DNA from: Flavobacteriales bacterium
GTDB taxonomy: Bacteria > Bacteroidota > Bacteroidia > CAIKAF01
Length of the DNA stretch: 64,000 nt
NCBI GenBank assembly: GCA_025451235.1
Contig: JANWKT010000001.1
Location: 186,001 to 250,000, forward strand
Reading direction: 5' to 3'
Made by a program: the position numbers and the translations under genes. Positions 7,656 to 60,200 of this stretch are shown here, piece by piece; the stretch's first letter is position 1, and each line of letters opens with the position of its first letter. The notes under the pieces were generated by a model. That model did no database searches. It was given only the letters and a program-made list of their open reading frames with translations, and was not told where the DNA came from.

Positions 7656-10271
7656 ATGAATCAAATTAATTGGAAAACATTATTACCCCATGGTATTGCG
7701 GTGGTGTTCTTTTTTGCTTTGGCAATTGCCTACAATAGCTCAATTATAGATGGCGGCCGTTTGGTAAGCCATGACGATACCATGTACCGAGGTGCTGCAA
7801 AAGAAATTATTGATTATAGGGAAAAAGAACATGAAGAGGGATTGTGGACCAACAATATGTTTAGTGGAATGCCCGCCTATACCCTTGCATATGCTCCGCA
7901 AAACAATTTGGTAGGAAAAGTATTTACCATTGTAGGAAGTATTCTACCCACACCGGCCATTCAAATGTTCTGGGCCATGTTATGTTTTTATATTTTATTG
8001 GTCACATTTGGATTTAAACCTTATGCCTCCGCCATTGGTGCCATTGCCTATGGCTTCTGCTCCTTCAATATTGAAATTGTAACGGCGGGGCATTACGCAA
8101 AACTCTGGGCCCTGGCATTTTTCCCATTAATCGTAGCGGGGATCAATCTTACTTTTCAAAAGAAATATATATGGGGGGCCTTGATCACAGGAGTTGGCAC
8201 CAGCGTTGAGATCATTGTGAATCACCCACAAATGACCTACTATTATTTTGTGTTTTTCCTTTCTCTGTATATGATCTATTTATTTATAAATGCTATTGTG
8301 AAGAAAGAGGTGAAGCATGCATTTATCGCCAGTGCTATTACTGTGGTGATGATGGTGGTCGGTTTGGGAAGTAATGCCAACCGTTTGTTACCTATCAACG
8401 AATATACAGCCTATAGTACCCGTGGAAAATCAGACCTAAAACAAGTAGCTGCATCCACTGATCAGACAGGTGGATTGGACAAATCTTATATAGTTGGTTA
8501 TAGCAGTGGAAGAGATGATATATTCAGCTTTCTGGTACCCAATTTTAAGGGGTTTAACAGCGGCGTCCAGCTAGTTGAAAATCCTATTGCAAAAGAAACC
8601 CTGGGAAAAGACAAGAATATGGTGATGCAAACCGAACAAATGCTTTATAATAACTACGGCGAAATTATATCTCAATATTGGGGGGGGACCGATCTTGCAG
8701 GCCCCGGTAGATATTGCAGTGTGATCATCTTTGCTTTGTTCCTGCTCGGATTTGTTTTTGTAAAGCATCCGGTTAAATGGCTCATCATTCCTGCATTTCT
8801 GCTAACCATGATGTTGAGCTGGGGGAAAAACTATATGGTCCTTACCGATTTCTTCATTGAGCATTTCCCGATGTACAATAAATTCCGAGCCGTTAATTCC
8901 ATCGTTATTGTCATCACTTTTATGATCCCCTTATTGGCCAGCTTTATGCTGGCCCGGTTAGCCAATGAACCGGCGTTTCTTGAAAAACCAAGTTTCGGAA
9001 AATATAAAAACAAACATATTTTGGTGGCAGGCTTAGGAGGCATCCTGTTGTTGCTTTTAGCCATGTACGCGGTACCAACTGCCTTCCAATCATTCACTAC
9101 ACCATCGCATATGGTTGATAGAGTGGGTAAGTACATGAGTGAAAGAGAAATGATTACAGAAGCACTTAGTTCACAAAATGTTGATCAACCATCTATCAAC
9201 AAGGTTATTGGATCTATTGAACAAGGGAGGATCGCTATTTTTAAGGCAGATGCATTAAGGTCATTTATTTACTTACTATTAGGATCTATTTTCATTGGTT
9301 TATATGCCTTTAAAAAGATCCCCTGGCAGATCATGATCGCGGCCGTTGGTGTATTTGTATTGATAGATATTTGCACCTACGACTATAGATTTTTAAATGA
9401 TAAGAACTTTAAACCCAAAAAGGAAAGTAAGAAAGATTTTGACCCGTCCTATGCAGATCAGGTGATCCTGAATGATAGTTCCATCCATAAACGTGTATTG
9501 AATTTATCATTAAGTCCTTTTAATGACGGAACTACCAGTTATTATCATCAATCCTTAGGTGGTTATAGTGGTGCTAAAATAAAAAGATACCAGGAGTTGA
9601 TCGAAAGAGGAATCTTCCCTGAGCTCAACCGGATTTTTGGGGGTGGCACAGAGAAAGTAGATTCTTTATTAAGTACAGCCCATGTACTCAACATGCTCAA
9701 CACTAAATATTTTATTTTCGATACCAAAGCTGCTCCTTTACCTAACCGGCATGCCAATGGACCTGCCTGGATGGTAACTGATATACGATTTGTAGAGGAT
9801 GCAGATGCCGAAATCGAGTCGCTCAAAACCATCAATACAAAAACAACCGCAGTAATCGACAAGAAATTCGAACCTTTGGTTAAAAAAGAGGGTATTCGAC
9901 CCGACAGCACCGCTACCATTAAAATGATCGTTAAAACACCCCGGTTGTTAGAATATGAATTTACATCCACTTATGATCAATTCGTAGTATTTAGCGAGAT
10001 CTATTATTGGGCCGGATGGAAAGCATATATTGATGGGAACGAAGTGGATATTATAAGAGTGAACTATGTACTACGGGCATTGTCTGTTCCCAAAGGCAAG
10101 CATAAAATCGAGTTCATGTTTGATCCTGCCTCCGTAAGAAAAGGAGAAACCTATTCATTATTAGGCAGCTCGGTAATGGTATTGTTGCTTCTTGCAGGTA
10201 TGTTTGTGGAGTTTAGGAGGATGAACAGAAAAACACCTCCTAAGATCAAGCCATCAGCTGCTAAGAAATAG
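7656..10271 (+). CDS. YfhO-like polytopic membrane protein
   Basis: An 871-residue protein with many hydrophobic segments from residue 10 to about 560, then a soluble region, and one last membrane helix (SLLGSSVMVLLLLAGMFVEF) before a basic tail. The N-terminal extracytoplasmic loop SHDDTMYRGAAKEI carries the paired acidic residues typical of GT-C glycosyltransferases. The overall form fits the Bacteroidota YfhO family, thought to transfer sugars from a lipid carrier outside the membrane. Length is typical. It lies between the glycan operon and the pse operon, so a role in glycan transfer is plausible but not proven. Confidence 0.85.
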   Translation: MNQINWKTLLPHGIAVVFFFALAIAYNSSIIDGGRLVSHDDTMYRGAAKEIIDYREKEHEEGLWTNNMFSGMPAYTLAYAPQNNLVGKVFTIVGSILPTPAIQMFWAMLCFYILLVTFGFKPYASAIGAIAYGFCSFNIEIVTAGHYAKLWALAFFPLIVAGINLTFQKKYIWGALITGVGTSVEIIVNHPQMTYYYFVFFLSLYMIYLFINAIVKKEVKHAFIASAITVVMMVVGLGSNANRLLPINEYTAYSTRGKSDLKQVAASTDQTGGLDKSYIVGYSSGRDDIFSFLVPNFKGFNSGVQLVENPIAKETLGKDKNMVMQTEQMLYNNYGEIISQYWGGTDLAGPGRYCSVIIFALFLLGFVFVKHPVKWLIIPAFLLTMMLSWGKNYMVLTDFFIEHFPMYNKFRAVNSIVIVITFMIPLLASFMLARLANEPAFLEKPSFGKYKNKHILVAGLGGILLLLLAMYAVPTAFQSFTTPSHMVDRVGKYMSEREMITEALSSQNVDQPSINKVIGSIEQGRIAIFKADALRSFIYLLLGSIFIGLYAFKKIPWQIMIAAVGVFVLIDICTYDYRFLNDKNFKPKKESKKDFDPSYADQVILNDSSIHKRVLNLSLSPFNDGTTSYYHQSLGGYSGAKIKRYQELIERGIFPELNRIFGGGTEKVDSLLSTAHVLNMLNTKYFIFDTKAAPLPNRHANGPAWMVTDIRFVEDADAEIESLKTINTKTTAVIDKKFEPLVKKEGIRPDSTATIKMIVKTPRLLEYEFTSTYDQFVVFSEIYYWAGWKAYIDGNEVDIIRVNYVLRALSVPKGKHKIEFMFDPASVRKGETYSLLGSSVMVLLLLAGMFVEFRRMNRKTPPKIKPSAAKK

Positions 10272-12096: not shown

Positions 12097-13155
12097 TTAA
12101 CTGATATCCTCCATTTTTAATGGAGTACCCTTTGGCAATTTTTTATTGAACTTCTTGCCCAAGACCTCGAAATAATATTTGGGGGCTAGTCCCATCGCAG
12201 GCCTTATCACTCTTATGTTTTGCTCGGTGATGGTGGTTCCTTCTTCCACATTGGCACTTACATAGATCGACCGCTTAAATACAAGACTGTTTTTTTCTTT
12301 TTCTGTAAGATCGTATGATACTTTTCCTCGTGCTAACCACGCTTTTTCCGACTCCTCTACCAACATTTTCATTTCAGCCGGTTCCATAGAGAAAGTGGAA
12401 TCAACTCCACCATCAGCTCTGCTGAGTGTAAAATGTTTTTCCAATACACAAGCTCCCAACGCAACAGCTCCCACCGAAACACCAATGCCCATGGTATGGT
12501 CGGAGAGCCCCACCAGGCAATTGAATTTTTCCCTCATATCCGGAATGGTAGAGATATTTGTATTTTCCGGACTTGCCGGATAGGTACTGGTACATTTCAG
12601 GATCACCAGGTTGGTGCATCCTGCTTTCCTTAATACCTCCACTGATTCTTTGATATCATCAAAACTAGACACGCCGGTTGACATGATCACCGGTTTTCCG
12701 GTGGCCGCTACTTTTTTAAGTAATGGATGGTGTGTATTTTCGAAAGAAGCTATTTTATAGCAAGGTACATTCAATGTTTCCAGAAAATCAACAGAGGATT
12801 CATCAAAAGGTGAACTAAAGCAGAGCAATCCTTTTTCTTTGGCTCTTTGAAAAATAGGTGCATGCCATTCCCATGGAGTATATGCTTCCTTATACAGGGT
12901 ATGAAGGTCTTTCCCCTTCCATAATGAATTTTTATCCTCAATGGTAAAAACATTTTCCATGGTAATGGTATCGGCCGTATAGGTTTGGAGTTTAATGGCC
13001 TGTACACCGGTTGCTGCAGCTGCGTCCACTATCTCCAATGCCCTTTCCAAGGATTGGTTATGGTTCCCACTCATCTCCGCAATAATAAAGGGACGAAAAC
13101 CTTCTCCGATATCATGCATCCCAATTTTAAAACTCGTGTTAAATCCCATAAGCAT
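12097..13155 (-). CDS. pseI: Pseudaminic acid synthase PseI
   Basis: A 352-residue NeuB-family synthase that condenses phosphoenolpyruvate with 2,4-diacetamido-2,4,6-trideoxy-L-altrose to give pseudaminic acid. The TIM-barrel motifs are clear: IIAEMSGNHNQ near the start, AIKLQTYTAD, YKIASFEN, GLSDHTMG and LEKHFTLS. A C-terminal SAF (antifreeze-like) domain follows, from about residue 290 (RSIYVSANVEEGTTITEQNI). It is the last gene of the pse operon. Its ATG overlaps the end of pseH by 17 bases (11 if the second ATG at 13149 is used). Assignment as PseI rather than NeuB rests on the neighbouring PseB, PseC, PseG and PseH. Confidence 0.93.
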   Translation of the reverse strand: MLMGFNTSFKIGMHDIGEGFRPFIIAEMSGNHNQSLERALEIVDAAAATGVQAIKLQTYTADTITMENVFTIEDKNSLWKGKDLHTLYKEAYTPWEWHAPIFQRAKEKGLLCFSSPFDESSVDFLETLNVPCYKIASFENTHHPLLKKVAATGKPVIMSTGVSSFDDIKESVEVLRKAGCTNLVILKCTSTYPASPENTNISTIPDMREKFNCLVGLSDHTMGIGVSVGAVALGACVLEKHFTLSRADGGVDSTFSMEPAEMKMLVEESEKAWLARGKVSYDLTEKEKNSLVFKRSIYVSANVEEGTTITEQNIRVIRPAMGLAPKYYFEVLGKKFNKKLPKGTPLKMEDIS

Positions 13156-13597
13156 ATTTTTTACTTACCTCATCATTGATCATTACTTCATCAAACTCCA
13201 CATAACCTGCTTTTTCAAAAGATTTAATCGAAATAGCATTCTCCCCTTTTATATATGCAATGATCCTTTCCTTTTTTACCTGTTTTACATAATCCTTGGA
13301 AGCCATTTCAATCATCAACGAAGCCAATCCCCTTCCCCGAAAATCTTTGGATACACTTACGCCAATAATGGTTTCATCCTCTCTTTTTTCAATTCTCACC
13401 ATTCCACAAGGGGATTTCTCAAACTTAAATATATAAATTTTACAAAGAGGGTCCTTTAGCTTTTTTTCGAACCAATTGATATGATCCTTCCATTTGATGA
13501 TCCCCGAGTTATAAGAGTTCCTCCTGGTTTCCTCGTCGTTGGCCCAATCGAACAATAACTGTTGGTGATCAATATTTGCGTACTCGTAGGCTAACAT
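13139..13597 (-). CDS. pseH: PseH-like N-acetyltransferase
   Basis: A 152-residue GNAT acetyltransferase. The acetyl-CoA binding loop is SVSKDFRGRGLASLMIEMA, preceded by GMVRIEKRED and followed by the family-typical ENAISIKSFEKAGY. The N-terminal half has WANDEETRRNSYNSG, a pattern found in PseH enzymes. In the pathway it acetylates the 4-amino group of UDP-4-amino-4,6-dideoxy-AltNAc using acetyl-CoA. The start ATG overlaps the pseG stop by 7 bases, and its 3' end overlaps pseI, so translation is probably coupled. Confidence 0.88.
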   Translation of the reverse strand: MLAYEYANIDHQQLLFDWANDEETRRNSYNSGIIKWKDHINWFEKKLKDPLCKIYIFKFEKSPCGMVRIEKREDETIIGVSVSKDFRGRGLASLMIEMASKDYVKQVKKERIIAYIKGENAISIKSFEKAGYVEFDEVMINDEVSKKYAYGI

Positions 13598-14610
13598 AAG
13601 GCTTTAAATATTTCTTTGATCCGGTCATGCGATCTTCCATCCACCAGTTTTTTCTGGTGTTTGATCATTTCATTCACTTGACCCACGGTGATCGACTTTA
13701 CTACAGACTGCATTTTTTTATTGGTAATGTTCATGAATTTGTCCATTCCAATCACTGCCGGCAGTCGGGTAAGTTCCTTATACATATCCTGCTGGTTGTC
13801 GGCCGTTATTCCACAGATAATTCCAATCCCCGCAGCACATGCTTCTATACACAATGTACTGGCCGATAAGATGGCCAGGTCATTGTCATTGAACAGATCG
13901 ATCACTTCCATAGTAGAAAGGTCAATATGAATATTCATTTTATCTTCAGCATTACAAAAATCCACCAAAGGAATAATATTCTTATTGGAAGTGGTGGTCA
14001 ACACATTGATCTGTTCGATTTCCTCAAGATCCAGCAACCAATCGGCCATTTGGGCAGAATATCCATGTACATCTGTGGCGCCCATAGCAATCAATAATTT
14101 TTTGGTATGGCTTCTGGGTCGTCTTACATTGCATGCCTCGATAAACTCATTCTTCAAAATGGCATAATTAAGTCCAAGAAAAAGTTGGGTATAGGGTTCC
14201 CTGGAATAATCCTCTAACTGTGCACCCCCATGATTGATCACCACATCCGAATAGAAATGATGGGCGTGAATATCATCAATACTTACCACTTTGCAATTTT
14301 TCTTTTTTAAATAAGGGGTAAGCCAGCCCCCTGTCAAATGATAACCATCCAATACAACGATGGTACCATCTGTAATACTCTTGTCTATTTCTTCTAAATC
14401 ATCCCCAGGCTGATCTTTTTGGGGCAAGTGGAGCAATTCATATTTTTTTTCCCTGCACAATCCCTGGCAAATTGCATTGTACTGCTGCATGACAAATACC
14501 GGTTGTAGAAAATCCTTCACGATATCTGCTAATCCCATACAACGGCTAAAGTGGCCCATGCCAATCTCTGAGGAGGCATCGGTACGGAAATATACTTTCG
14601 GCCTGTCCAC
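13591..14610 (-). CDS. pseG: PseG, UDP-2,4-diacetamido-2,4,6-trideoxy-altropyranose hydrolase
   Basis: A 339-residue GT-B-like nucleotide-sugar hydrolase that removes UDP before the PseI reaction. The N-terminal catalytic loop is FRTDASSEIGMGHFSRCMGLA, which carries the conserved histidine. VVLDGYHL and the C-terminal half with AILSASTLCIEACAAGI (the nucleotide-binding SGxxxxEA-type region) complete the family pattern. It starts with GTG at 14610, whose first base is the last base of the upstream TAG stop (a one-base overlap). It lies between the NeuB/cytidylyltransferase fusion and pseH. Confidence 0.92.
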   Translation of the reverse strand: MDRPKVYFRTDASSEIGMGHFSRCMGLADIVKDFLQPVFVMQQYNAICQGLCREKKYELLHLPQKDQPGDDLEEIDKSITDGTIVVLDGYHLTGGWLTPYLKKKNCKVVSIDDIHAHHFYSDVVINHGGAQLEDYSREPYTQLFLGLNYAILKNEFIEACNVRRPRSHTKKLLIAMGATDVHGYSAQMADWLLDLEEIEQINVLTTTSNKNIIPLVDFCNAEDKMNIHIDLSTMEVIDLFNDNDLAILSASTLCIEACAAGIGIICGITADNQQDMYKELTRLPAVIGMDKFMNITNKKMQSVVKSITVGQVNEMIKHQKKLVDGRSHDRIKEIFKALC

Positions 14611-16388
14611 TAAATTCTTATTTTGGTTACCTCATTCAATTTATCAATGAGTGATTGGTCGGTCTTGTAGGTTAAACCAATATGTGCATTGATCTTTGCA
14701 ATTTCGGGGTTTTCATCCAAAAATTTAAATAATTCCTGAATGGAATATTCCAATTGGTGTGTCCGGAAATGTTCATCTATCTTTTGAAAGAGCTCTAAAT
14801 CTTCCTGGTGATCCAGGGTAAGCCTGTAGTTGCGTACCAATTCTTTGGGAAGGTCAACAAAGTTCAATTTAAAATGCTCAGGGTTATTCACAAAATACCA
14901 TGACATGTATTCCGAATAATTGGCTTCCGGAAAGAAAGACTTGGCATATCTCAATGCCGAAGTGCTGATGATCTCAATGCCTGTACCCACAGCCGCTTCA
15001 GCAGCCCTGGTAAAATCTGCTCCTTTCTCAAAATGCGATTTCAACAGGATCTTGGTAATGTCATTGGAAACATATTGCATATCGGCGGTAACTCGTACGA
15101 TCACATCGATCTGCATTTTATCGATGATGTCCAGGTACCGTTTGATCACATCCAGGGGATCACCCTTATGAAAAATAACGTCTTTTGAATAGGTATGGTT
15201 TCTCAATTCATCATCCTCCTCGCTTGTGCTCGTGGCCAAAATGGTATGATCTACATTTTCGAAATTGAGACAATGCTTTACACATAATTCAGTAGCACTT
15301 AGGTCGCCAATTTTTAAAACAGCTTTCTTGGGTAACCGGGTAGACTTTAACCTGCAAGCTATAATGGTAGCTATATGTGCTTTTTTTAGATCTGTAGCTT
15401 GGATCGTTTCCTTTTCGTTCTTATCATTGGCCAATAAGTAAAATGAGTTCACCTGCTTTTCAATTTCATGTGCCCTTAATCCTTCCTGGTTCGATCTTTT
15501 AAAATCAAAATCCGATTCGAGGCTGGGGACCTTTCCCTTTCTCATCGGATGTTTGGTAACCGGTATCTGTATAGATCCTGAAAGGTATTTGGCCTCATTG
15601 GCATTTACAAAAGGTTGCTCAAATGTTTCAGCGTATTTTCGTGCCACCTCCAGGAACCGACCATACTGATCCTTGTTCATGCTGGAATAAAAATCGTATT
15701 TAGGTTTTTCACCGGAAAGGCAAATATGTTTTTCGATATAAGTGGCCCCAGCTACATAGGCCATCACAGGCAGCCAGGTAGCATCCTCATCATCCGGAGC
15801 GATATGATCTGCAAAGCTGATCTCATAAGGAAAAGCTTTTTGGATCGCCTGGATCTTCACCAATCCACTATCGATCAACTGGGTTGGATAAGATTGAAAT
15901 CCTATCTGTAAAATAATTTCCTGGGGTCTTAATGTTTCCCTGAAATTAGTTACCACTTCTTTGATTTGCTCCATTTCCAATCCAGAAATATTCAGGATCA
16001 TTTTTTTTGATGAAAGATCGAGTTGAGAAAATAATTTTACCAGGTTTTTATTATATAAGGTAGACGCCTGAAATTTAAATCCATAAACTTTGTCAAAATT
16101 ATCACGGGCTATTTCAAACGAATAATCATCAAAAGTGTCAATCCATATATCCCAATGCTTCGAAGCCTGATCGATCATTGCCTTCCATTTCTCAGGCGTA
16201 AAATAAAGTTCTTTATATACTTCGTACCAGCTAAAGTCTTCCAGCGCGATCTTATCATATTTGAACGGCTGAAATTTTATTCCATTGATCCCTTTTAATG
16301 TGCTAAACTCTTTGAACAGGTCGTACACATACTCCTCCTTACCTGCATGTACATTGGCAATTTCTATGATATGATACATATCTTTCAT
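14610..16388 (-). CDS. NeuB-like synthase fused to SpsF/PseF-type cytidylyltransferase
   Basis: A 592-residue two-domain protein in one continuous frame. Residues 1 to about 260 align along their whole length with PseI encoded four genes downstream. E9, H14, K38 (IKFQ), D194-H195 (ADH), E219-K220-H221 (IEKH) and D232 sit where the NeuB-type synthases have their PEP and metal residues. Residues about 280-335 may be a degenerate SAF-like linker. From about residue 339 (ATIIACRLKSTRLPKKAV) to about 565 is an SpsF/CMP-sugar synthetase-like nucleotidyltransferase. No separate pseF exists in the operon, so this half may make CMP-pseudaminate. The first half looks like a second nonulosonate synthase. 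It begins 5 bases after pseC. Confidence 0.85.
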   Translation of the reverse strand: MKDMYHIIEIANVHAGKEEYVYDLFKEFSTLKGINGIKFQPFKYDKIALEDFSWYEVYKELYFTPEKWKAMIDQASKHWDIWIDTFDDYSFEIARDNFDKVYGFKFQASTLYNKNLVKLFSQLDLSSKKMILNISGLEMEQIKEVVTNFRETLRPQEIILQIGFQSYPTQLIDSGLVKIQAIQKAFPYEISFADHIAPDDEDATWLPVMAYVAGATYIEKHICLSGEKPKYDFYSSMNKDQYGRFLEVARKYAETFEQPFVNANEAKYLSGSIQIPVTKHPMRKGKVPSLESDFDFKRSNQEGLRAHEIEKQVNSFYLLANDKNEKETIQATDLKKAHIATIIACRLKSTRLPKKAVLKIGDLSATELCVKHCLNFENVDHTILATSTSEEDDELRNHTYSKDVIFHKGDPLDVIKRYLDIIDKMQIDVIVRVTADMQYVSNDITKILLKSHFEKGADFTRAAEAAVGTGIEIISTSALRYAKSFFPEANYSEYMSWYFVNNPEHFKLNFVDLPKELVRNYRLTLDHQEDLELFQKIDEHFRTHQLEYSIQELFKFLDENPEIAKINAHIGLTYKTDQSLIDKLNEVTKIRI

Positions 16389-16393
16389 TGTCT

Positions 16394-17554
16394 TTATTTC
16401 AAAAAATCTAATATTTTACTGATCACATAATCCTGCTCCTCGTCTTTTAGCGAAGGATACAATGGCAAACTCAAACATCTTTCATAATAAGCCTCTGACA
16501 CAGGAAAATCTCCCTTTTTCCAGCCGAATTGTTGATAATACGGCATGAGGTGGGTGGGTATATAATGTATTTGTGGAATAATATCCTGGGTGAGTAAATA
16601 ATCGTATAATGCTTTTCGGTTCTCTATTTGTATAATATATAAATGATAGCCGTGGAAAACGGATTGAGGAACAAAAGGTGTTTTTATCTTTGGATGATCG
16701 TTAAATGATTTGTTGTATTTATCCACGAGTTCATGCCTCCTTTTCATTCCAGCTTCTGCCCTGCTAAGCTGACTGGTACCAAGAGCCGCCTGCATATCAG
16801 TTAAGCGGTAATTATATCCCAGGTCAACCATTTCCATATACCAACCACCATGGTTCTCCTTCATGAGTGCAGGATCTTTTGTAATTCCATGGGTACGCAA
16901 TATCATCAGCCGGTCATATAAATCTTTATTGTTTGTTGTGATCATTCCCCCTTCTCCACAGGCAATATGTTTAACCGGGTGAAAAGAAAATATGGCCAGA
17001 TCGGCAAAATTCCCGTTGCCACAACGCTGATTTTTACCTTTGCTATCGGTAAAATAAGCGCCTGGGGCATGACATGCATCTTCAATCATCCACATGCCAT
17101 ATTCATCGGCCAGCGTTCTGAATTTTTCAAGGTCCACTGCATATCCCGCCAGGTCTACCGGTATCATCCCTTTAAAATATCCTTTCGGATGTTTCGCCAA
17201 CAAAGATTTTACTTTGTCGAAATCCAACGTATAGGAGACAGGATCAATGTCAGAAAAAATCACCTCTCCATCACAGTATCGAATGCAGTTGGACGAAGCA
17301 GCAAAAGTAATGGGTGGAACAATTACACGATCTCCCTTCTGCACATTCAATACCATGGCGCATAAATGTAGCGCCGCGGTTCCATTAGCCAATGCAACCG
17401 CATATTTACATCCTATATAATCAGCAAATGCTTTTTCAAATTCGGCCACTTTCGGGCCTTGTGTAAGAAAGTCGGATTGTAATGTTTCAACAACGGCCCT
17501 GATATCTTCATCCGTAATTAACTGACGACCGTATGGAATTTTTTTTTTGATCAT
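16394..17554 (-). CDS. pseC: PseC, UDP-4-amino-4,6-dideoxy-AltNAc aminotransferase
   Basis: A PLP-dependent DegT/DnrJ/EryC1-family aminotransferase of 386 residues. It converts the 4-keto product of PseB to the 4-amino sugar using glutamate. The PLP-lysine motif is FSFHPVKHIACGEGG. Other family marks are ALANGTAALHL, DACHAPGA and NYRLTDMQAALG. The start is set at ATG 17554 (MIKKKIPYGRQ). A longer frame would begin with TTG at 17578, inside pseB. The ATG follows the pseB stop by one base. The next gene starts 5 bases downstream. Confidence 0.94.
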   Translation of the reverse strand: MIKKKIPYGRQLITDEDIRAVVETLQSDFLTQGPKVAEFEKAFADYIGCKYAVALANGTAALHLCAMVLNVQKGDRVIVPPITFAASSNCIRYCDGEVIFSDIDPVSYTLDFDKVKSLLAKHPKGYFKGMIPVDLAGYAVDLEKFRTLADEYGMWMIEDACHAPGAYFTDSKGKNQRCGNGNFADLAIFSFHPVKHIACGEGGMITTNNKDLYDRLMILRTHGITKDPALMKENHGGWYMEMVDLGYNYRLTDMQAALGTSQLSRAEAGMKRRHELVDKYNKSFNDHPKIKTPFVPQSVFHGYHLYIIQIENRKALYDYLLTQDIIPQIHYIPTHLMPYYQQFGWKKGDFPVSEAYYERCLSLPLYPSLKDEEQDYVISKILDFLK

Positions 17555-17555
17555 A

Positions 17556-18569
17556 TTAAACAGTAAAGGTCGGGTCAATAAATTGTTTGATCAAAGAGCG
17601 GATATCCTCTACACTTAGCCATTCTGAATTTTCTCCTGAATTATAACAAAACCCAATGGGTACAGGAGTTGCTTTGTTTTGTTTCAGGTAATCCTCCACG
17701 CTCCATTTAATAGGTGACTGTGGTAAAATAGCAAAATATTTTCCTACATCTACGGTAGTAAACGAATCGGAAGTGGTGATCATTTCTTCATGAATTTTTT
17801 CGCCAGGCCGGATACCCACAAACTCAAGTTTTGCATGGGGAGCAACTGCTTTGGCTACATCCAGGATTCTATAGGAAGGGATCTTGGGTACAAAGATCTC
17901 ACCACCCCAGGCATTTTCCAGGGCATGTAATACCAGGTCTACTCCTTCTTCCAGTGAAATGTTGAATCTTGTCATTCTCTCATCGGTAATAGGTAAGACC
18001 CCCTCTTTTCTTTTGTTCAGGAAAAAAGGTATTACAGACCCCCTGCTTCCCATTACGTTACCATACCTCACCACTGATAGACTCAGGTCCCTGCTTCCAA
18101 CAATGCTATTGGCTGCTATGAATAATTTATCTGAGCAAAGTTTGGTAGCCCCGTATAGGTTAATGGGAGCTGCAGCTTTATCGGTCGACAAGGCAACTAC
18201 CTTTTGCACACCACAATCCAGGGCGGCGTTGATAATACTATTGGCTCCTAATACATTGGTCTTGATAAACTCCATGGGATTGTACTCCGCGGCGGGTACT
18301 TGCTTAAGAGCTGCAGCATGCACAATGATATCCACCCCTTCACAAGCCCTGGTAAAACGGGCTTCATCCCGAATATCTCCCAAAAAATAGCGCATGGCAG
18401 GATATTTACTATGCGGAAACTCATGGGCCATTTCGAATTGCTTGAGTTCATCTCTTGAGAAAACAACTAATCTTTTTACGCCAGGATGTTTTTCGAGGAC
18501 TGTTTTTACGAACATTTTCCCGAAAGAACCTGTTCCACCTGTAACTAATACCGATTTATTATTGAGCAT
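17556..18569 (-). CDS. pseB: PseB, UDP-GlcNAc 4,6-dehydratase (5-inverting)
   Basis: A 337-residue extended SDR that carries out the first step of pseudaminic acid synthesis. The NADP site is VLVTGGTGSFGKMF. The catalytic region STDKAAAPINLYGATK carries the threonine/aspartate/lysine and Tyr-x-x-x-Lys set of inverting 4,6-dehydratases. RYGNVMGSRGSVIPFF and GIRPGEKIHEEMI are family-specific. It is the first gene of a six-gene minus-strand operon, with a good promoter at 18601-18632. Leader length is about 25 bases. Confidence 0.95.
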   Translation of the reverse strand: MLNNKSVLVTGGTGSFGKMFVKTVLEKHPGVKRLVVFSRDELKQFEMAHEFPHSKYPAMRYFLGDIRDEARFTRACEGVDIIVHAAALKQVPAAEYNPMEFIKTNVLGANSIINAALDCGVQKVVALSTDKAAAPINLYGATKLCSDKLFIAANSIVGSRDLSLSVVRYGNVMGSRGSVIPFFLNKRKEGVLPITDERMTRFNISLEEGVDLVLHALENAWGGEIFVPKIPSYRILDVAKAVAPHAKLEFVGIRPGEKIHEEMITTSDSFTTVDVGKYFAILPQSPIKWSVEDYLKQNKATPVPIGFCYNSGENSEWLSVEDIRSLIKQFIDPTFTV

Positions 18570-18600
18570 TTACGAACGCCTTAGTTAAATTTTTGACCTA

Positions 18601-18632
18601 CAAATCTAATTAAATCGTGCAAATCGAACAAA
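18601..18632 (-). promoter_or_regulatory. Promoter of the pse operon
   Basis: On the minus strand, TTTG (18632-18629), a 20-base spacer, then TAGATTTG (18608-18601). Both elements match the Bacteroidota consensus, and the ATG of pseB lies about 30 bases downstream. Confidence 0.6.
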
Positions 18633-18636
18633 TCAC

Positions 18637-18834
18637 TGATCAGGGCCCTTTGGGGTACGTTTGGTACCATTCCCAGGATACAGCCTGGGCAGGCTTAAGA
18701 GTAAGCTCCCCGATAGCTGCGGTGTTATGGCTGCTTTTCAGCCCAGCCCGGACAAAATGTATGAACCCCGTGGCCGCAGGCCATGGGGCCTACCCTCGGC
18801 AGAAGCGGCGAACCTGGTAAGCGACCAGGCAGGC
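18637..18834. repeat. GC-rich intergenic hairpin cluster (18.7 kb)
   Basis: A GC-rich block between the divergent pse operon and the Maf-like gene. Several hairpins follow one another. CCCAGG-CCTGGG is at 18672-18689. CCCCgTGGCC-gca-GGCCAtGGGG is at 18766-18788. CCTGGT-aagcg-ACCAGG is at 18813-18829. A GGTAC pair lies near 18655. The block ends just before the TATATTTG promoter. Short frames reading through it have no protein-like features. Confidence 0.6.
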
Positions 18835-18844
18835 AAAAAACTAG

Positions 18845-18852
18845 TATATTTG
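18845..18852 (+). promoter_or_regulatory. Promoter -7 element (TATATTTG)
   Basis: TATATTTG lies 7 bases before the ATG at 18860, so the mRNA would be nearly leaderless. Confidence 0.5.
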
Positions 18853-18859
18853 AACCATT

Positions 18860-19729
18860 ATGGCAAAGGAATCAGCGATTTCAACTTTCATTAGCAACAC
18901 CCTTCAAACCCAGCTGTCTATTGCAAAGATCCTGATCCAGTCGAAGTTTTTTACCAGGAAACTCTCTTTTGCCCCCCTTGAAAAATGTGTGGTATTGGGT
19001 AACGGGCCTTCGCTTTCGAAAGAAATTGAAAACCATCCCGATTGGTTTAGATCAACCCCGAAGCTGGCCGTTAATTTATTTGTAAAATCTGATTATTATA
19101 CCCAATTAAAGCCGGAGTTTTACGTTATCAATGCACCTGAACATTGGTTCGAATCAGTGAATGATTTGGGCAGAAAGGCCACTGTTGAATTATATGAACT
19201 GATGGCAGAAAAAACTACCTGGGATATGACATTATTGATCCCCTATGGGGCAAAGAAAAATAATGAATGGAAAAAATATATCGCCAACAATAAGCATATC
19301 AAGATCCATTATTATAACAAAACCCCGGTTGAAGGTTATGGATGGTTTTGCAATATTGTTTTTAAAAAAAGGTGGGGCATGCCCCGGCCCCACAATGTGG
19401 TCATCCCGGCATTGATGCATGCCATTGATATTGGCTTTAACGAAATATACTTGGCAGGGGTTGATCATTCATGGTTAACAGGTTTGCGTGTAGAACAAGA
19501 CAATACAGTCACCATGGAACATACCCATGTTTATGGAGAAGTAGTTCGTTATCCTATTTTTGCCTACCTTGATGAAAAGCGTCATTTGCATGATATGCTG
19601 ATGAAATTTGTACATACTTTTAAGAGTTATTTTTTTATCAGGGATTATGCCACCCACCAACATAAAAAGATCTATAACATTACCGAAGGTTCGTTTATTG
19701 ATGCTTTCGAAAAAAGAAAAATCAGCTAG
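18860..19729 (+). CDS. DUF115/Maf-like Rossmann protein, candidate nonulosonate transferase
   Basis: A 289-residue cytoplasmic protein. CVVLGNGPSLSKEIENHP (about residues 43-60) and EIYLAGVDHSW (about 192-202) match the GxGPSL and GxD motifs of the DUF115/MptE-like fold. Motility-associated factor (Maf) glycosyltransferases use this fold to put pseudaminic or legionaminic acid onto flagellins. There is no membrane segment or signal peptide. It is divergent from the pse operon and abuts the flippase gene, whose ATG follows its stop directly. Transfer of pseudaminic acid to a glycan or protein is an inference from fold and context. A simple sugar-modifying role is possible. Confidence 0.7.
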   Translation: MAKESAISTFISNTLQTQLSIAKILIQSKFFTRKLSFAPLEKCVVLGNGPSLSKEIENHPDWFRSTPKLAVNLFVKSDYYTQLKPEFYVINAPEHWFESVNDLGRKATVELYELMAEKTTWDMTLLIPYGAKKNNEWKKYIANNKHIKIHYYNKTPVEGYGWFCNIVFKKRWGMPRPHNVVIPALMHAIDIGFNEIYLAGVDHSWLTGLRVEQDNTVTMEHTHVYGEVVRYPIFAYLDEKRHLHDMLMKFVHTFKSYFFIRDYATHQHKKIYNITEGSFIDAFEKRKIS

Positions 19730-21214
19730 ATGGGGGTAGTAAAAAGGCAAACCATTAAATCGGTTATTTACACCTATGCCGGTACTATTCTTGGGTTTAT
19801 TACAGTTGGTATTTTGTTCCCCATTTATTTAACTACCTCCGAAATTGGGGTTTTGAACCTGGTGAACCGTTGGAGTGTAATGATCATGCAGATAGGCACA
19901 TTGGGATTTCCAGTAGCGATGATCAAGTATTTCCCTTATTTCAGGAACAAAGAAAAAAAATACCATGGCTTTCTGTTTGTCTCCTTATTGATAGGATTAA
20001 TAGGTTTTGCCATCACGGCAGGCATCCTTTTTTTATTTAACGATGCTATCGTAGAAAATGAAAAATTAAAGTCTCCTCTTTTTAGCCAGTATTTTAATTA
20101 TATATACATGGTTACCTTTTTTTACTTGTTCTTCTATATACTGGATGTGTACTCAAGGGCCATTTATCAATCATCTGCATCCGTGCTACTCAGAGAATTT
20201 GTACAAAGGGTGATCATCATTACATTAACCGGAGCCTTTATCGCCAAACTCATTGGATTCGGCGATTTTGCCATCTTTTATTATATTACCCTTTGTCTGC
20301 CCACTATTTTTCTGTTTCTTTTTTTAGCCGTTAAAAAAGAGATCCATTTAACTCCCAATTTCGAAATTTTTAGGACTGAGCACCGAAGCTCGATCATCAA
20401 GAGAAGCGCATTCGGTTTGATCTCCGGTATGGGGATCAGCGGCTTACTAAGTATTGATGTGATCATGCTGAATGAATACCTGGGTGAAGCATCAACAGGT
20501 GTATATATTACAGTATTTTATTTTGCTTCGCTGATATTGATCCCGTTCCGCTCCTTTGGTCGCCTGGGTGGCAACCTGATTGCCGAAGCCATTAAGGAAG
20601 AAGATCATGTAAGGTTGAAAAAAGTGTATTACGATAGTTGCCTAACACAGTATATCATTGGAATTATTCTTCTGGCCTCCATGCTAGTAAATGTGGACAA
20701 TATTTTTACATTTTTAAAACCAGAATACAGAGAGGCCTATTATGTAATTCTCATCGTAGGCATTGGAAACCTATTTGAAATGGCCACCGGACTTAATCAT
20801 AGTATCATCGATAATTCTACCCATTATAGGTTTGGAACTTATTTTGTAGGGTTGCTTATTCTTTGCACCATCGGATTCAACATGATCTTTATCCCGTTGA
20901 TGGGGATCAATGGGGCTGCTATTGGTACTGCATTATCCATCATTGTATTCAACCTGGTAAAAACCATATTTGTATATAGTAAATATAAATTATGGCCTTT
21001 CAATCTGAATTTTGTTTGGGTACTTTTATTGGCAGCTGTATTGGTAACGGTGGTATGGATGGTTCCCAATTTATCCAACGTTTATATCAATACTATTTTC
21101 AAATCTTCTCTCTTGTTTTTTCCTTTGTTCACTATTATTTATTTAGGGAAATTCTCCGCTGAATTTAACGGGCATATCCATAGTTTTTTGAATCTTTTGA
21201 AGAAGAAAAGATAA
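19730..21214 (+). CDS. Wzx-type oligosaccharide flippase
   Basis: A 494-residue polytopic membrane protein with about 12-14 hydrophobic segments spread evenly from residue 10 to the end. It fits the MATE/MOP polysaccharide exporter family (family pattern YTYAGTILGFITVGILFPIYLT near the start, SEIGVLNLV shortly after). Flippases of this type move lipid-linked oligosaccharides across the inner membrane. Its ATG follows the stop of the Maf-like gene with no gap, so they form one transcript. It converges on pyk with only 11 bases between the stops. Together with the pse operon it suggests an exported glycan containing nonulosonic acid. Confidence 0.88.
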   Translation: MGVVKRQTIKSVIYTYAGTILGFITVGILFPIYLTTSEIGVLNLVNRWSVMIMQIGTLGFPVAMIKYFPYFRNKEKKYHGFLFVSLLIGLIGFAITAGILFLFNDAIVENEKLKSPLFSQYFNYIYMVTFFYLFFYILDVYSRAIYQSSASVLLREFVQRVIIITLTGAFIAKLIGFGDFAIFYYITLCLPTIFLFLFLAVKKEIHLTPNFEIFRTEHRSSIIKRSAFGLISGMGISGLLSIDVIMLNEYLGEASTGVYITVFYFASLILIPFRSFGRLGGNLIAEAIKEEDHVRLKKVYYDSCLTQYIIGIILLASMLVNVDNIFTFLKPEYREAYYVILIVGIGNLFEMATGLNHSIIDNSTHYRFGTYFVGLLILCTIGFNMIFIPLMGINGAAIGTALSIIVFNLVKTIFVYSKYKLWPFNLNFVWVLLLAAVLVTVVWMVPNLSNVYINTIFKSSLLFFPLFTIIYLGKFSAEFNGHIHSFLNLLKKKR

Positions 21215-39657: not shown

Positions 39658-41697
39658 TTATTGTCCGCGGGCTTCTTTTAAGGAGGCCACCCCTTGCAAG
39701 GTTAATTGATGGTTGGGATTGATCTGAAGAGCCCGGGTAAAATATACTTGTGCTGAGTCTAGGTTTTTGGCCACACTTAAATAAGCCCCTCCTAAATTAT
39801 AATGTACATCCGCACTTAAGGGATCAATCGATTTGGCTTTATATAAAAAATAAAAACAAGAATCGGGTTTTCCTTGCTGGTACTTTTCAAACCCCAGGTT
39901 GATATAATCCATCGACACCATGTTCTTCAGGGCGGGGATCTGCGGATGCCTCGGAAAAATTTTTGCCACTTGCCCTACTGCAAACTCCGAACTTTGAAAG
40001 TTTTTCAGTTTATGTTCAATCACTGCCAGGCTCATCCATGAATTCACCATGGTAGGGTGGACTTCCAATGCTTTCACAATATATCCGCGGGCTTCTAAAC
40101 ACATTTCTTTTTCTTTGCTCTTGTTCTCGAACAGGTCGGTACGGTTCAATATATACGTACCCGCATTGGCATTGAGCAACGCCGAGTTCGGATTTGTTTT
40201 TACATCCGTTGTAGCCAACGTATAATCATTTTTCCAGGCTGCACACCGTTTGCTTACGATCATAAAAAATGGAATAGCCACCAAAGCTGTAAGAACCCCA
40301 CCGGCAGACAATGCAATTTTGGGATCCTTGATTTTTTTAGTGAGTACATATATTCCATAAAAAACCGCGATGATCAATCCCATGGATGAATGATAGACCA
40401 AACGTTCACCCATACTGGCACCGATATTAAAAACAATATTGCTAACAAGTAGGAGATTAAGAATATAGAACAATAAAGCAAAGGAAAGGATCAAATGTTT
40501 TTTTACAATACTATAAATAGTAGCTATCAGCAATCCCAGATGAAATAAGAGAGAAAAAATGACTTCAGGAGAAGAAAAATGCCTGAATGGAATGGTCTTA
40601 AAAGAATAATCACTTGCCAAAGGATATGGATAGATCTGCAGTAAAAAATATTTGAGGAGGATATAGATCTGGGTAGCATCCTGTTCATCCCCTTTTGCAA
40701 ACAGGTAATAATCATTCAATACGTCCCTTTTTGCATTCGGATCTTCCATCACCGCATTGATCCTCAAAAAATAATAAGGTATAAAAGCCACTGCCAAAGG
40801 CACCAATGCCATGATGATCTGGAGCATATCCACCTTCTTTTGTTCTACATAGGTCCACACGGGAATAATGAATACCAATACTACAGCATATTCTTTCGAT
40901 AACATGGCCAGGAAAAATAAAATCCCTACTAATATCCCATGCAGAAAATTGGTTTTCTGCAAGTATCGGTTAAATTGGAGAAGGGTAAGCAGAATAAACA
41001 AAAGTGATAAGATCTCATCCCGGCTTTTTATATTGGCCACCACTTCTGAATGGATGGGATGCATAGCAAAAACCAGGGTAACAAACAAGGCCCAATATTC
41101 ACGGTAATTAAGTTTTTTAAATAACACTTGGTATAAAAAAATAAACAGGACCACCATTGAAATAGAGTAGAGCAAAACATTGTTGAAATGCTGAATATGG
41201 GCCAATCTTTTAAACTCATGCACCGCAGTTAATATAGCGAGCCCATCTCCATATTCTTTGGTGGTATAGGTTACCTCTCCCTTGGGAGATATTTTCTTGA
41301 ACCTGCCCTGGTATACTTTTCCATCTGTTCCGGTAACTGATACCTTATCCCCTTTTTGAAATCCGAACAATTCATATTCTACCGCGAATGTTACAATGGA
41401 TAAAGGGCGGTAACGACCGCCGGATAATTGTCCTTTGGATCCTAATTGAGTAAAAAAACTGGCATAGGCATCCTTTGTCAGGATATCACTGATCCCTGAA
41501 ACCCCTTTGTGGACAAATTCATTTTTCTCCATAGTGATCCCATCATCCAGGGCATATTCATTGCTGATGGAGCGGGCATAGAAAATAAAGCTCACCAGAA
41601 AAACAATGGCTGCCATGATCCAGAATTTCATATTCAATTTTGGAGCTGGTGGTTGTTCTACAGTTTTGGGTTTCTGCTTTTGTATATTTTTTGCCAT
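39658..41697 (-). CDS. TMTC-like membrane protein with C-terminal TPRs
   Basis: A 679-residue protein. After a basic cytoplasmic start there are about 11-12 membrane segments (residues about 25-480), and then a soluble TPR region to the end (for example PLSADVHYNLGGAYLSVAKNLDSAQVYFTRALQINP). The first extracytoplasmic loop has NEYALDDGITM with the paired aspartates of GT-C enzymes. HPIHSEVVANIKSRDEILS is typical of the DUF1736/TMTC O-mannosyltransferase family. It probably transfers a lipid-linked sugar to exported proteins, but this is by family. It converges with the CTD lipoprotein gene. The stops are adjacent. Confidence 0.82.
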   Translation of the reverse strand: MAKNIQKQKPKTVEQPPAPKLNMKFWIMAAIVFLVSFIFYARSISNEYALDDGITMEKNEFVHKGVSGISDILTKDAYASFFTQLGSKGQLSGGRYRPLSIVTFAVEYELFGFQKGDKVSVTGTDGKVYQGRFKKISPKGEVTYTTKEYGDGLAILTAVHEFKRLAHIQHFNNVLLYSISMVVLFIFLYQVLFKKLNYREYWALFVTLVFAMHPIHSEVVANIKSRDEILSLLFILLTLLQFNRYLQKTNFLHGILVGILFFLAMLSKEYAVVLVFIIPVWTYVEQKKVDMLQIIMALVPLAVAFIPYYFLRINAVMEDPNAKRDVLNDYYLFAKGDEQDATQIYILLKYFLLQIYPYPLASDYSFKTIPFRHFSSPEVIFSLLFHLGLLIATIYSIVKKHLILSFALLFYILNLLLVSNIVFNIGASMGERLVYHSSMGLIIAVFYGIYVLTKKIKDPKIALSAGGVLTALVAIPFFMIVSKRCAAWKNDYTLATTDVKTNPNSALLNANAGTYILNRTDLFENKSKEKEMCLEARGYIVKALEVHPTMVNSWMSLAVIEHKLKNFQSSEFAVGQVAKIFPRHPQIPALKNMVSMDYINLGFEKYQQGKPDSCFYFLYKAKSIDPLSADVHYNLGGAYLSVAKNLDSAQVYFTRALQINPNHQLTLQGVASLKEARGQ

Positions 41698-55971: not shown

Positions 55972-57030
55972 TTAATTATATAATATATCCAATGGCCATT
56001 TTTTACCACCTGCTTTAAAATCTAATTTCGCTTCTACTTTTCCATGACCCAGCATCTGGCGAATTACATTCAGGTCAGCTCCTTGTTCTTTCAAATGCTC
56101 TTCAAAGGATTTGCTTAATCCCGGAGTGTTGATCTTTTTACGGATCCTGGCTGATTGTAACGATGATTTTAATGCATGTTGGATTGATCGAATGCTATAT
56201 GCACCTCCATCAGCTCCTTCAAATAAATATTTTTCAGGTTTAAATTCTTTCATGTATTTCGCAAGGATGGCAGCATCCGACTTAGAGATCATAAATGATT
56301 TCTCTTTTCCTGAAGCTGTTTTGCGGATGATCACTTTATTCCCTTTCAGGTCAACATCCCCTACCCGAATGGTAGAAATGTCGCTTACCCGAATACCACA
56401 TCCATAGGCCAAACTGACGATGGCTTTGTATTTGGTGTTATCTACTGCTTCAAATATCTTACTTAAATCACTATCATTAAGAGACTTAACTTCAGATTTA
56501 TTCCTTGGACGAGAGAACCCTACCGGCAATATATCCTTATGGGCCACTTCCTGGAAATAAAACTTGATCGCATTGACTCTCAGGTGCATCTGGTGATCTT
56601 TCACCCCTAATTCCTCAATACAATAGAGTAAATAAGAGCTTACTTGCTTAGTCGTTAATTTATTGATCTGATTCTGGCCCAATAAATACATTAATTGAAG
56701 CAATTCCATTCTATAAATACGAATAGTATTGTCGCTGTATTTTTTTCTTCTCATGGCCTTCACCATATCGTCCAAAGCCTTGTTATTAGCGTCGTTCACA
56801 AACCATTCCTTCTTCTTTTGTGATACATGCTGTGGTGGCTCTGTAACCGGAAGGCCACATTTTCTGCGGTTTTCAGCAGTATCAGGAATATGCCATCCTT
56901 TCAATTGCTTGCTGAATTGCGCACCCTCAACAGCTTTCATGTATTTATCCCATTCCGAATTGGATGGGAATTTTACCATGATTCTGCTCTGTCCACGGTT
57001 ATCGATTACTTTAAAATTTATTGCCGCCAT
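55972..57030 (-). CDS. Tyrosine-recombinase homologue lacking catalytic residues
   Basis: A 352-residue protein. Residues 1-60 form an unusual basic N-terminal domain. About 80-165 is the SAM-like core-binding domain (KYSDNTIRIYRMELLQLMYLLG). About 180-340 is the catalytic domain. R214 (GCGIRVSD), K242 (TASGKEK) and H329 (LGHG) fit the catalytic set. The HxLR box is PGLS (residues 303-306), so its histidine and arginine are gone, and the nucleophile tyrosine position is F338 (KLDF). The frame is intact, so this looks like a maintained DNA-binding protein, not a decayed pseudogene. A TACTTTTG promoter element lies at 57066-57073. The hairpin array follows the stop. Confidence 0.85.
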   Translation of the reverse strand: MAAINFKVIDNRGQSRIMVKFPSNSEWDKYMKAVEGAQFSKQLKGWHIPDTAENRRKCGLPVTEPPQHVSQKKKEWFVNDANNKALDDMVKAMRRKKYSDNTIRIYRMELLQLMYLLGQNQINKLTTKQVSSYLLYCIEELGVKDHQMHLRVNAIKFYFQEVAHKDILPVGFSRPRNKSEVKSLNDSDLSKIFEAVDNTKYKAIVSLAYGCGIRVSDISTIRVGDVDLKGNKVIIRKTASGKEKSFMISKSDAAILAKYMKEFKPEKYLFEGADGGAYSIRSIQHALKSSLQSARIRKKINTPGLSKSFEEHLKEQGADLNVIRQMLGHGKVEAKLDFKAGGKKWPLDILYN

Positions 57031-57276: not shown

Positions 57277-60200
57277 TTAATCGTGGCTATCCACTCGTAG
57301 GGAGTCAACTGCTCTCTCCTGATTGGTAGGCATTTCAGGCGAAGTATTGGTACCCAACCCTATTTTGGCTAACAGCTGGTCGCAAAGGGCCAGGATCTGT
57401 TTAGCCCGGTTATAATCTTCATCCACCACGCTTTTATTCTTCACCGAGGCGTAGTAATCCACATCGATCTGGGTCCTTTCCCTTAAGGTTTGCGTTATCT
57501 GGGTAGCCTTCTCTTTCTTACCTAATTGGTAATACAATTCCGCAATCAATAAGTTAAAGTAATTATAGGCGACAACATTGTCGGGCATGAGCTCTTCGGT
57601 TTTATCTAAACATTTCAGTGCCTTGTCATTTTTACCTTCCATCATTAAAGCGGTAGCCAACCTCAGGAAGTTATTCCTTAGGTTCATGGTCATCCTTAAG
57701 TTGGTTTCATCCAGGTAAACTCCCTTGCCATTCATATTACCCCATTTAAACTTGTTCACCATATTATCGTACATGGCATCCGTGTTTACCTCACCCAACT
57801 GCCCATCATGGCTTTTTACCTTATAAGGAACCAATCTATAGGCCAATCCTTCCACTTCAAAATAATCCTGTAAGCCCAAATAATTGCTTTCGCCTACGGT
57901 AATGGCAAAATAGATAGGTCTATCCCAATTAAAATGAGCCAATAGATCCAGGATCATTACATCAGCCTTCAACACATAACTGCGGTTGATCACCAACGGT
58001 AATGCCTTCACCATTCGGCCCTGGGTTCCTTTTCTAAAGGTGGTATCATTTGCCACTTTTGCACTATCTACTGGAATAATGAATTTATTGGATTTGAAGA
58101 AGTATAACTCTTCTCCTGAATCCGGGATCTTATAAAGATTGCTTTTATCGGTTGCTCTCAAGAACTTGATCTGATCCTGGATCGTATAGAATTCCTCATT
58201 GCTTCTATCCAATAATACCTGGTCTCTGATCCCTTGCCTATATTCCGGTTCTATCATACCAAATGGAACGGCCTTGCCATCATAGGCGGCCCTCTTCATT
58301 TGGGTTATATACCAATCCGTATTGAGCAGGCTGAGGTTTACTACCCTTACATCTGTCCGAACACCTTCTACTTCCTGCAAATACCATAGTGGGAAGGTAT
58401 CATTGTCGCCATTTGTAAATAAAATAGCATTGGGGGCACACGAGTTGAGGTAATTATAGGCAAAATCCCGGGCAGTATATCTATTGGCACGGGTATGGTC
58501 GTCCCAATTCTCTTTGGCCAGGATGGTAGGCACTAATAAGAAAGAAAGCGGAACCACAGCGATGGACATACTGTCCTTGAGACCACCGAATTTTTTAAGC
58601 AATTCAACAATTCCAAGCACTCCCAAGCCTATCCAAATGGCAAAGACGTAGAACGATCCGGCAAATACATAATCCCTTTCGCGGGGTTGGATCGGAGGGG
58701 CATTGTTATGAAAAACGATGAGGAGTCCGGTGAACACAAACAAGGTTAAAACAGCCCAAAAACCCTTCCGGTCTCTGAAGAAGTGGAAGACCATTCCTAT
58801 GACACCAAAAATAAAGGGTAACATATAGTATTTATTCCTTCCTTTGTTCTCTGCTATTTCTTTTGGTAGATTTTTTTGAGGGTAGCCTAAAAATAATTCA
58901 TCAAGGAACCCAATACCGGTGATGCAATGCCCATTTAGGGGTTGTCCGTGACCTTGAATATCACTTTCACGACCAACGAAATTCCAGCCGAAATATCGCA
59001 AATACATCCACTTGATCTGGTAATTAAATGCGAATTGAACATTGTTGCCGAAACCGGGTTTTCCACCCTTGGGCACATTACCCCAATACTCATTTTGTTC
59101 CTTATGTTCGGGACTCCATATCCGAGGGAAGAGAGTCATCCTTTCCGGCTCATATTTGGGCTCGATCTTATGGTCGGCCACTATATATTTCCGTTGAATA
59201 GAAAGGCTCGCTTTGTTAGGGTTATTTGCAATAAATTCCTTGGCTTCCCGCTCGATCTGGAAGGACATGATAGGTTTTTTGCTCCCTTTTTTCACTACCT
59301 GGTAAGCAGGAATATAAATGGGAGAAGTCTTTTCATACTTGATCACCTTGGCATCATAAAAAGGTCCATAAATCAATGGACGGCTGCCATATTGCTCACG
59401 ATTCAAATAGGATTTCAACGCAAAAATATTCTCCGGGTTGTTCTCATCCATAGGAGTATTGGCTTTGGATCTAATACCAATTGCACCGTAAGAGGAATAG
59501 CCTATAAGGATGACCAATAATGACCATAGGCCCATCGTGGCAAAGTATTTTTTTCGTTTTTGCAAGAAGAATATACCTGCGCAAATCCCCCCCAGCAGCA
59601 ACACCAGATATACCAGCATCCCGGTGCCAAAATTAGCTCCGAACCCATTGGTGAATATCCGTTCATTTACCCCCGCCAAACTAATGGTACCTGGTATAAC
59701 TCCATAGGTAATGAAGAGGAAAATGGCCATCGAAATGATCAAAGTATAGAATGATCCCAATGCATCTCCCTTGTACTTGCGGTAATAATATACCAAGGCC
59801 ATGGCAGGAATGGTTAAGAGGTTCAATAAATGGACCCCTATAGATAATCCCATTAAATACATGATCAGAATGATCCAACGGTCTGCATAGGGCTTGTCAG
59901 CCGAAGAATCCCACCTGAGCATGGCCCAGAACACAATGGCTGTGAACCAGGAAGAGATAGCATATACCTCCCCTTCCACTGCACTGAACCAAAACGTATC
60001 GGTAAAGGTATAGGCCATAGCGCCGGTAAAAGCGGCTCCAAAGGCACCCAATGCCGACATGGCATCCCATTCAAATATTTTACCTCCGTTATTGAGTGTT
60101 TTTATTCTCTTAATGATGGCCATAATGGTCCAGAATAAAAATCCAATGGTAAATGCTGAAGAGGTAACTGAAACCAGGTTGACCATCATGGCTACCTTGG

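Follow-up and report, generated by a model that had tools for sequence, protein, structure and literature searches.

A protein of 289 amino acids (aa), encoded opposite a pseudaminic acid (Pse) operon in a Flavobacteriales bacterium, is probably best explained as a stand-alone CMP-nonulosonate transferase that acts on a lipid-linked glycan, which the Wzx-type flippase encoded by the next gene would export. The genes lie in a stretch of 64,000 nucleotides (contig JANWKT010000001.1, positions 186,001 to 250,000), here called the window. A preliminary description of the window had called the protein Maf-like; it fits a stand-alone family within the Maf/GT42-like superfamily better than it fits Maf.

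Gene arrangement

The features discussed below are listed in Table 1. The open reading frames, the length of 289 residues and the motifs GNGPSL (residues 47–52) and AGVDHSW (residues 199–205) are all as the preliminary description gave them. The same applies to the gapless coupling with the flippase gene, whose ATG at 19730 is directly abutted by the TAG stop codon of the 289-aa gene (19727–19729), and to the divergence of both genes from pseB. The flippase matches Polysacc_synt (PF01943) with E = 6.7e-5 and 22.9 bits, under the curated cut-off of 28.2, and is termed Wzx-type despite this score because of its tblastn similarity to the flippases of other loci. The arrangement is kept in a genome of the same genus at 78% identity and, as 115 stretches in genome_contigs also encode a relative of the 289-aa protein, it is not a product of chance.

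The divergent intergenic region contains three copies of TAnnTTTG, which we take to be the Bacteroidota −7 element, compared with 0.37 expected from the density of the motif in the window. Within window positions 18845–18860, a TATATTTG motif stops 7 bases upstream of the start codon of the 289-aa gene, so that the transcript may be nearly leaderless, or the true start codon may lie further in. No repeat copies of the intergenic region were found in the bacterium's own genome.

Table 1. Positions of the features discussed in the text, numbered from the first letter of the window.
Feature	Position	Strand	Evidence
YfhO-like GT-C protein, 871 aa; candidate transferase outside the membrane	7656..10271	+	PF09586 58.9 bits, cut-off 28.5; GT-C fold
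pseI, pseudaminic acid synthase	12097..13155	-	TIGR03586 491.7 bits, cut-off 340.25
pseH-like acetyltransferase	13139..13597	-	TIGR03585 50.9 bits, under cut-off 93.1
pseG hydrolase	13591..14610	-	TIGR03590 169.1 bits, cut-off 153.55
NeuB-like domain (no SAF match) + cytidylyltransferase fusion	14610..16388	-	PF03102 E 2.7e-17, PF02348 E 1.6e-13
pseC aminotransferase	16394..17578	-	TIGR03588 453 bits, cut-off 423.5
pseB, UDP-GlcNAc 4,6-dehydratase (inverting)	17556..18569	-	TIGR03589 510.6 bits, cut-off 407.75
Divergent intergenic region, three TAnnTTTG motifs (18656 +, 18845 +, 18608 -)	18570..18859	.	3 found, 0.37 expected from window density
DUF115/MptE-like protein, 289 aa; proposed stand-alone CMP-pseudaminate glycosyltransferase	18860..19729	+	ORF; PF01973 below cut-off; fold; neighbourhood
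Wzx-type flippase, 494 aa; start codon adjoins stop of 289-aa gene	19730..21214	+	ORF; Polysacc_synt below cut-off; homologues in other loci
PMT_2-type GT-C protein with C-terminal TPR repeats	39658..41697	-	
Tyrosine recombinase adjoining the TMEM260-like gene	55972..57030	-	Phage_integrase E 1.5e-19
TMEM260-like protein O-mannosyltransferase homologue with TPR repeats	57277..60423	-	PF11028 E 2.9e-71

The pse operon on the minus strand runs in the order pseB, pseC, NeuB-like/cytidylyltransferase fusion, pseG, pseH-like, pseI. It is a genuine one, as the scores of PseB, PseC, PseG and PseI are above their NCBIfam cut-offs, unlike that of PseH. The fusion protein (592 aa) is probably the CMP-Pse synthetase. 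The operon encodes a complete PseI besides this fusion, homologues of which were seen in seven other loci (L021, L070, L074, L076, L077, L078 and L085). The setting is non-flagellar, as had been claimed: a search for flagellin (PF00669) gave no match in the whole genome, which is 98% complete (control positive in 4 of 14). Six of the scanned window proteins carry a T9SS sorting domain of type A or B, in agreement with the earlier mention of many T9SS cargos.

Predicted fold and family assignment

PF01973 (MptE-like), of which DUF115 is the older name, is the sole Pfam family matched by the 289-aa protein at E ≤ 1. The score (E 2.9e-6, 27.6 bits) does not reach the curated cut-off of 34.6. The gene is the single PF01973-type match in its 4.28-Mb genome. 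There was no match for the protein in NCBIfam, and none when the single sequence was compared with the PDB by phmmer. An amphipathic N-terminal membrane helix appears unconvincing (moment ≤ 0.35).

Relatives of the protein were aligned (alignment A2, 79 rows, with the broken L081 and L089 excluded), and 78 of the 79 rows match PF01973 at E ≤ 0.1. Residues N48, P50, N72, W121, N153, G159, G173, N179, G200, H203, S204, N215, H223, N273, S278, D281 and A282 are invariant, so that two histidines that may correspond to the catalytic one of CstI/CstII, H203 and H223, occur in 79 of 79 rows; a third such candidate, H178, occurs in 77. The AlphaFold2 model obtained with A2 has a pLDDT of 92.3 and a pTM of 0.91. 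Among 1000 PDB chains aligned with it, the top fold match is Maf 5MU5 (Z 13.9, rmsd 3.7, 199 residues), in which chain residues 262–507, the central catalytic domain of Maf, align with model residues 31–289. The sialyltransferases CstI and CstII match with Z 10.7–11.7 over 173–196 residues, and further matches include SteA (Z 11.0), a Pasteurella sialyltransferase (10.8) and human ST8SiaIII (8.9). The HPPK of M. jannaschii (8sd5) reaches Z 10.6 over 171 residues, and thiamine pyrophosphokinases, which have part of the fold, reach Z 7–10; given these similar scores, the fold alone is compatible with another nucleotide enzyme. When the A2 profile was compared with PDB sequences (E ≤ 10), all seven distinct matches were to CstI/CstII (E 0.0021–0.013), with which the 289-aa protein has the GNGPSL nucleotide-site region in common. 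The closest folds are those of Maf and CstI/CstII; a best match to some unrelated Rossmann family lacking a nucleotide-sugar pocket, which would have counted against the preliminary description, did not emerge.

What stands of the Maf-like label is the Maf/DUF115-type fold and the sialyltransferase-like nucleotide site. Identity with Maf itself was rejected, as the two other Maf domains are missing, the PF01973 cut-off is not reached and there is no flagellin acceptor. A GT42 identity was rejected because the protein has no match to PF06002 (GT42) at E ≤ 1, and identity with the MptE 6-hydroxymethylpterin diphosphokinase was rejected on the PF01973 score, the lower fold score and neighbours of another kind. 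A search for GT42 in 80 genomes of the phylum gave no match, but its control was negative throughout, so that absence does not follow.

Distribution and genomic neighbourhoods of the family

The 289-aa protein is present in 9 of 16 genomes of its taxonomic family, its own included. The best 80 of the 115 genome_contigs relatives, which were analysed, come from Bacteroidota groups, Ignavibacteria/Melioribacteraceae, one member of Chlorobiota and a few unclassified bacteria; a scan of viral_contigs yielded no relative. Two of these 80 relatives (L036 and L087) are fused in frame to a cytidylyltransferase. Both fusions are from Bacteroidales (L036:10001–11629 and L087:2417–4039) and would lend themselves to enzyme assays. 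Cultivated relatives with the cassette seen in the window include Reichenbachiella versicolor (L066) and Marivirga atlantica (L042). When the 79 aligned rows were labelled by partner pathway (27 Pse, 2 legionaminic acid (Leg), 36 other nonulosonate and 14 none), the labels required 20 changes on the tree compared with 35.3 after shuffling, none of 200 shuffles giving so low a value, and a Pse and a Leg partner, L026 and L058, are sisters with support of 97/91. This pattern indicates that the family tracks nonulosonate synthesis generally and is not tied to a single sugar. A separate long branch carries the window copy together with L021.

The neighbourhoods of these 80 loci (1.30 Mb in total, chosen by similarity) were searched by tblastn at E ≤ 1e-5 with references from the window and its relatives. 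A NeuB-family gene, a NeuB-CTP fusion or a PseB homologue was found in 65 loci, a cytidylyltransferase in 55, a family-2 glycosyltransferase in 56, a YfhO homologue in 34 and Wzx in 31. The immediate downstream gene on the same strand belongs to nonulosonate synthesis in 46 of the 80, often with a 4-base overlap, and the preceding one is a family-2 glycosyltransferase in 42, contig ends and two broken frames being kept in both denominators. The latter glycosyltransferase is not adjacent in the window; the genome has its nearest homologue on a different contig (C13:49195–50076, 38%, E 2.4e-65).

Since the 80 loci are the best-scoring matches, the count was repeated on genomes drawn by taxonomy alone. 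Of 395 genomes of the class, 36 contain the family at E ≤ 1e-15, in 37 loci. Nonulosonic-acid synthesis genes were found by a strict rule in 26 of the 37 and weaker signs in four (L018, L137, L143 and L144), while the remaining seven (L020, L123, L126, L130, L132, L138 and L140) have no nonulosonate gene or hint in reach. Partner operons of legionaminic type occur in L019, L104, L128, L136, L142 and L147. Wzx is present in 21 of the 37 loci, YfhO in five (own genome included) and a family-2 glycosyltransferase in five, so that the nonulosonate link seen in the window is family-wide and the flippase partner recurs in other loci. In a sample of 296 genomes of the phylum, a NeuB-family gene lies within about 8 kb of five out of five strong family matches. 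A PseI-family match of any strength occurs in 204 of these genomes, one to five times each, from which we estimate that fewer than 1–2 of the 37 loci would show the association by chance. The nonulosonate linkage of the family exceeds chance.

One of the loci with weaker signs, the second copy in genome G005 (L018:251–4330), is preceded by genes for a PseA-like amidotransferase (read by eye) and for HisH- and HisF-like proteins and is followed by a flippase; judged from these neighbours it is possibly a modified nonulosonate pathway.

PseI exceeds its cut-off in 41 of the 296 genomes, whereas a strong family member was found in only five, with at most eight candidates per genome scored in the first search, so other Pse transferases must exist. 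Three related operons (G034, G050 and G097) have the order YfhO, Wzx, GT4-like protein, a protein of 460–470 aa and then pseB, which in G097 lies in a masked stretch. The 460–470-aa protein matches PF05159 Capsule_synth in both copies scanned (G034 and G050), and the occupant of the slot in G097 is probably Capsule_synth/KpsS-like too, KpsS proteins being members of the Capsule_synth family. That a different, KpsS-like type of nonulosonate transferase can occupy this slot is support for an equivalent function of the DUF115-type protein: KpsS1 (GT118), which is of another Pfam family than the 289-aa protein, is reported in the cited part of PMC12887879 as an experimentally defined pseudaminic acid transferase. 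The operons L119, L120 and L121 contain pse genes and immediately adjacent YfhO and Wzx genes, separated by 1 base in L120, and have no DUF115-type gene.

Candidate attaching enzymes

The preliminary description had proposed that GT-C enzymes, among them a YfhO-like protein, attach the exported glycan to T9SS substrates; no observation in the analysis links the glycan to such cargo. The YfhO-like gene is the sole YfhO match in its genome and lies 8.6 kb from the 289-aa gene. The model of its product (pLDDT 82) has an oligosaccharyltransferase-like GT-C fold, with matches to AftD (Z 20.4), STT3 of the OST complex (20.1), Pmt4 (18.8) and PglB (17.0). The YfhO profile has no match among PDB sequences at E ≤ 1. 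A published network, as presented in the part of PMC10584680 cited here, ties a YfhO-like family to STT3/PglB. YfhO-like proteins are present in 114 of 118 genomes of the phylum, mostly as one match. Of the 16 genomes in this sample with PseI over its cut-off, four (own included; read by eye) have YfhO and pseI no more than about 10 kb apart, and the three others all come from a single taxonomic family (f17). The linkage, strong in the similarity-chosen loci (34/80), is weak in the unselected ones (5/37) and is seen in some lineages. Because the protein is near-universal, has nonulosonate genes as neighbours only in a minority of the lineages and could do another job, we regard it, from its predicted structure, as no more than a fair candidate for the attaching enzyme.

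Further protein glycosyltransferases are possibly represented by the TMEM260-like protein, of which a second copy lies just beyond the window (C1:254596), and by the PMT_2-type protein with TPR repeats, which we take to resemble TMTC proteins. A tyrosine recombinase gene adjoins the TMEM260-like gene. A 2025 review, in the part cited here (PMC12871550), suggests homologues of eukaryotic O-mannosylation enzymes for the O-glycan core, describes the general O-glycosylation locus of Bacteroidota (LFG type) as having a metG-wzx start and two conserved terminal glycosyltransferases, and states that the OTase and ligase of Bacteroidota O-glycosylation are undiscovered.

Proposed pathway and alternative explanations

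The 289-aa protein is very likely a nonulosonate transferase. As a stand-alone cytoplasmic glycosyltransferase it would use CMP-Pse made by the divergent pse operon as donor and would add pseudaminic acid to a glycan. The acceptor is probably lipid-linked and exported by Wzx, in which case the flippase would move the Pse-bearing lipid-linked glycan to the periplasm. There the glycan would be transferred to its final carrier by an oligosaccharyltransferase or a ligase in the membrane, for which the YfhO-like GT-C protein is a possible candidate; that YfhO performs this transfer seems doubtful to us. Several observations weigh against the proposal: the PF01973 and Polysacc_synt scores under their cut-offs, the seven unselected loci devoid of a nonulosonate partner, the fold partly shared by thiamine pyrophosphokinases and HPPK, the many PseI-bearing genomes without a strong family member, and the long branch of the window copy and L021.

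It is quite possible that the enzyme acts as proposed and that the destination of the glycan is LPS O-antigen, capsule or exopolysaccharide, never protein. Loci for surface polysaccharides typically contain Wzx and nonulosonate genes, and the alternative occupant of the transferase slot is of the Capsule_synth family; however, neither a polymerase nor an O-antigen ligase was recognized next to the genes in the locus, and the YfhO-like OST-fold protein is frequent in the similarity-chosen cassettes. This possibility alters the last step of the proposal only. A larger departure would be direct protein glycosylation as in Maf, with Pse transferred to Ser/Thr of a non-flagellar cytoplasmic protein and the flippase serving another step or pathway. 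The closest solved fold is indeed that of Maf, described in the cited part of PMC4065374 as a cytoplasmic flagellin glycosylator, and 16 of the 37 unselected loci have no Wzx in reach. We nevertheless consider direct transfer distinctly unlikely, given that the N- and C-terminal domains of Maf are missing (289 aa compared with 632 in 5MU5), that the genome lacks flagellin and that Wzx is coupled to the gene here and accompanies it in 21 of the 37 loci.

The protein could also be a nucleotide or pterin kinase, that is, an MptE-type diphosphokinase or other small-molecule enzyme fortuitously located beside the pse operon, as the Pfam name MptE-like and the fold match to HPPK 8sd5 would allow. 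This is very improbable in view of the better match to Maf, the larger number of residues aligned with CstI/CstII (173–196 compared with 171), the restriction of the profile's PDB sequence matches to sialyltransferases, the operon linkage and the cytidylyltransferase fusions.

The preferred reading, a transferase coupled to a Wzx flippase, has partial counterparts in known systems. Maf of M. magneticum (5MU5) has the same PF01973-type central domain and works with Pse or Leg synthesis genes, but Maf is defined by three domains, according to the cited part of PMC11339370, whereas the present protein has one, is coupled to a flippase and occurs in a genome without flagellin. CstI/CstII of GT42 have the GNGPSL region and the fold in common with it, and a CMP-nonulosonate donor is likewise expected for the 289-aa protein, whose family accompanies Pse/Leg genes instead of sialic acid loci of the host type. 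In the O-glycosylation locus of Tannerella forsythia, also a member of Bacteroidota, Wzx adjoins pse genes and a nonulosonate transferase, GtfS, is known (PMC6120980); in the cited parts of PMC6120980 and PMC6388019, however, GtfS is a 445-aa GT-B protein, in contrast to the 289-aa DUF115-type protein. The CsbB/GtcA/YfhO lipoteichoic acid glycosylation of Bacillus and Listeria, as outlined in the cited part of PMC5836110, similarly combines a cytoplasmic transferase, a flippase and an outside YfhO-family GT-C protein; the system proposed here differs in its Wzx-type flippase, in a nonulosonate that would replace C55-P-GlcNAc and in belonging to a Gram-negative phylum.

Significance

Few Pse/Leg transferases that act outside flagellin are known; a 2020 paper stated, in the part cited here, that no non-flagellin legionaminic acid transferase had been reported at that time (PMC7439481). 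The titles and abstract openings covered by our literature search did not assign nonulosonate transfer in Bacteroidota to the DUF115-type family. The family spans Bacteroidota and neighbouring lineages and accompanies both pse and leg operons, and its short single-domain protein suits assay. It is unlikely as a whole that the new transferase family, Wzx and the YfhO-like GT-C protein form a minimal system for export and attachment of nonulosonate glycans, with the last serving as the ligase or OTase of Bacteroidota O-glycosylation. The neighbouring Wzx and, in some lineages, YfhO-like GT-C genes offer a concrete candidate for that OTase or ligase.
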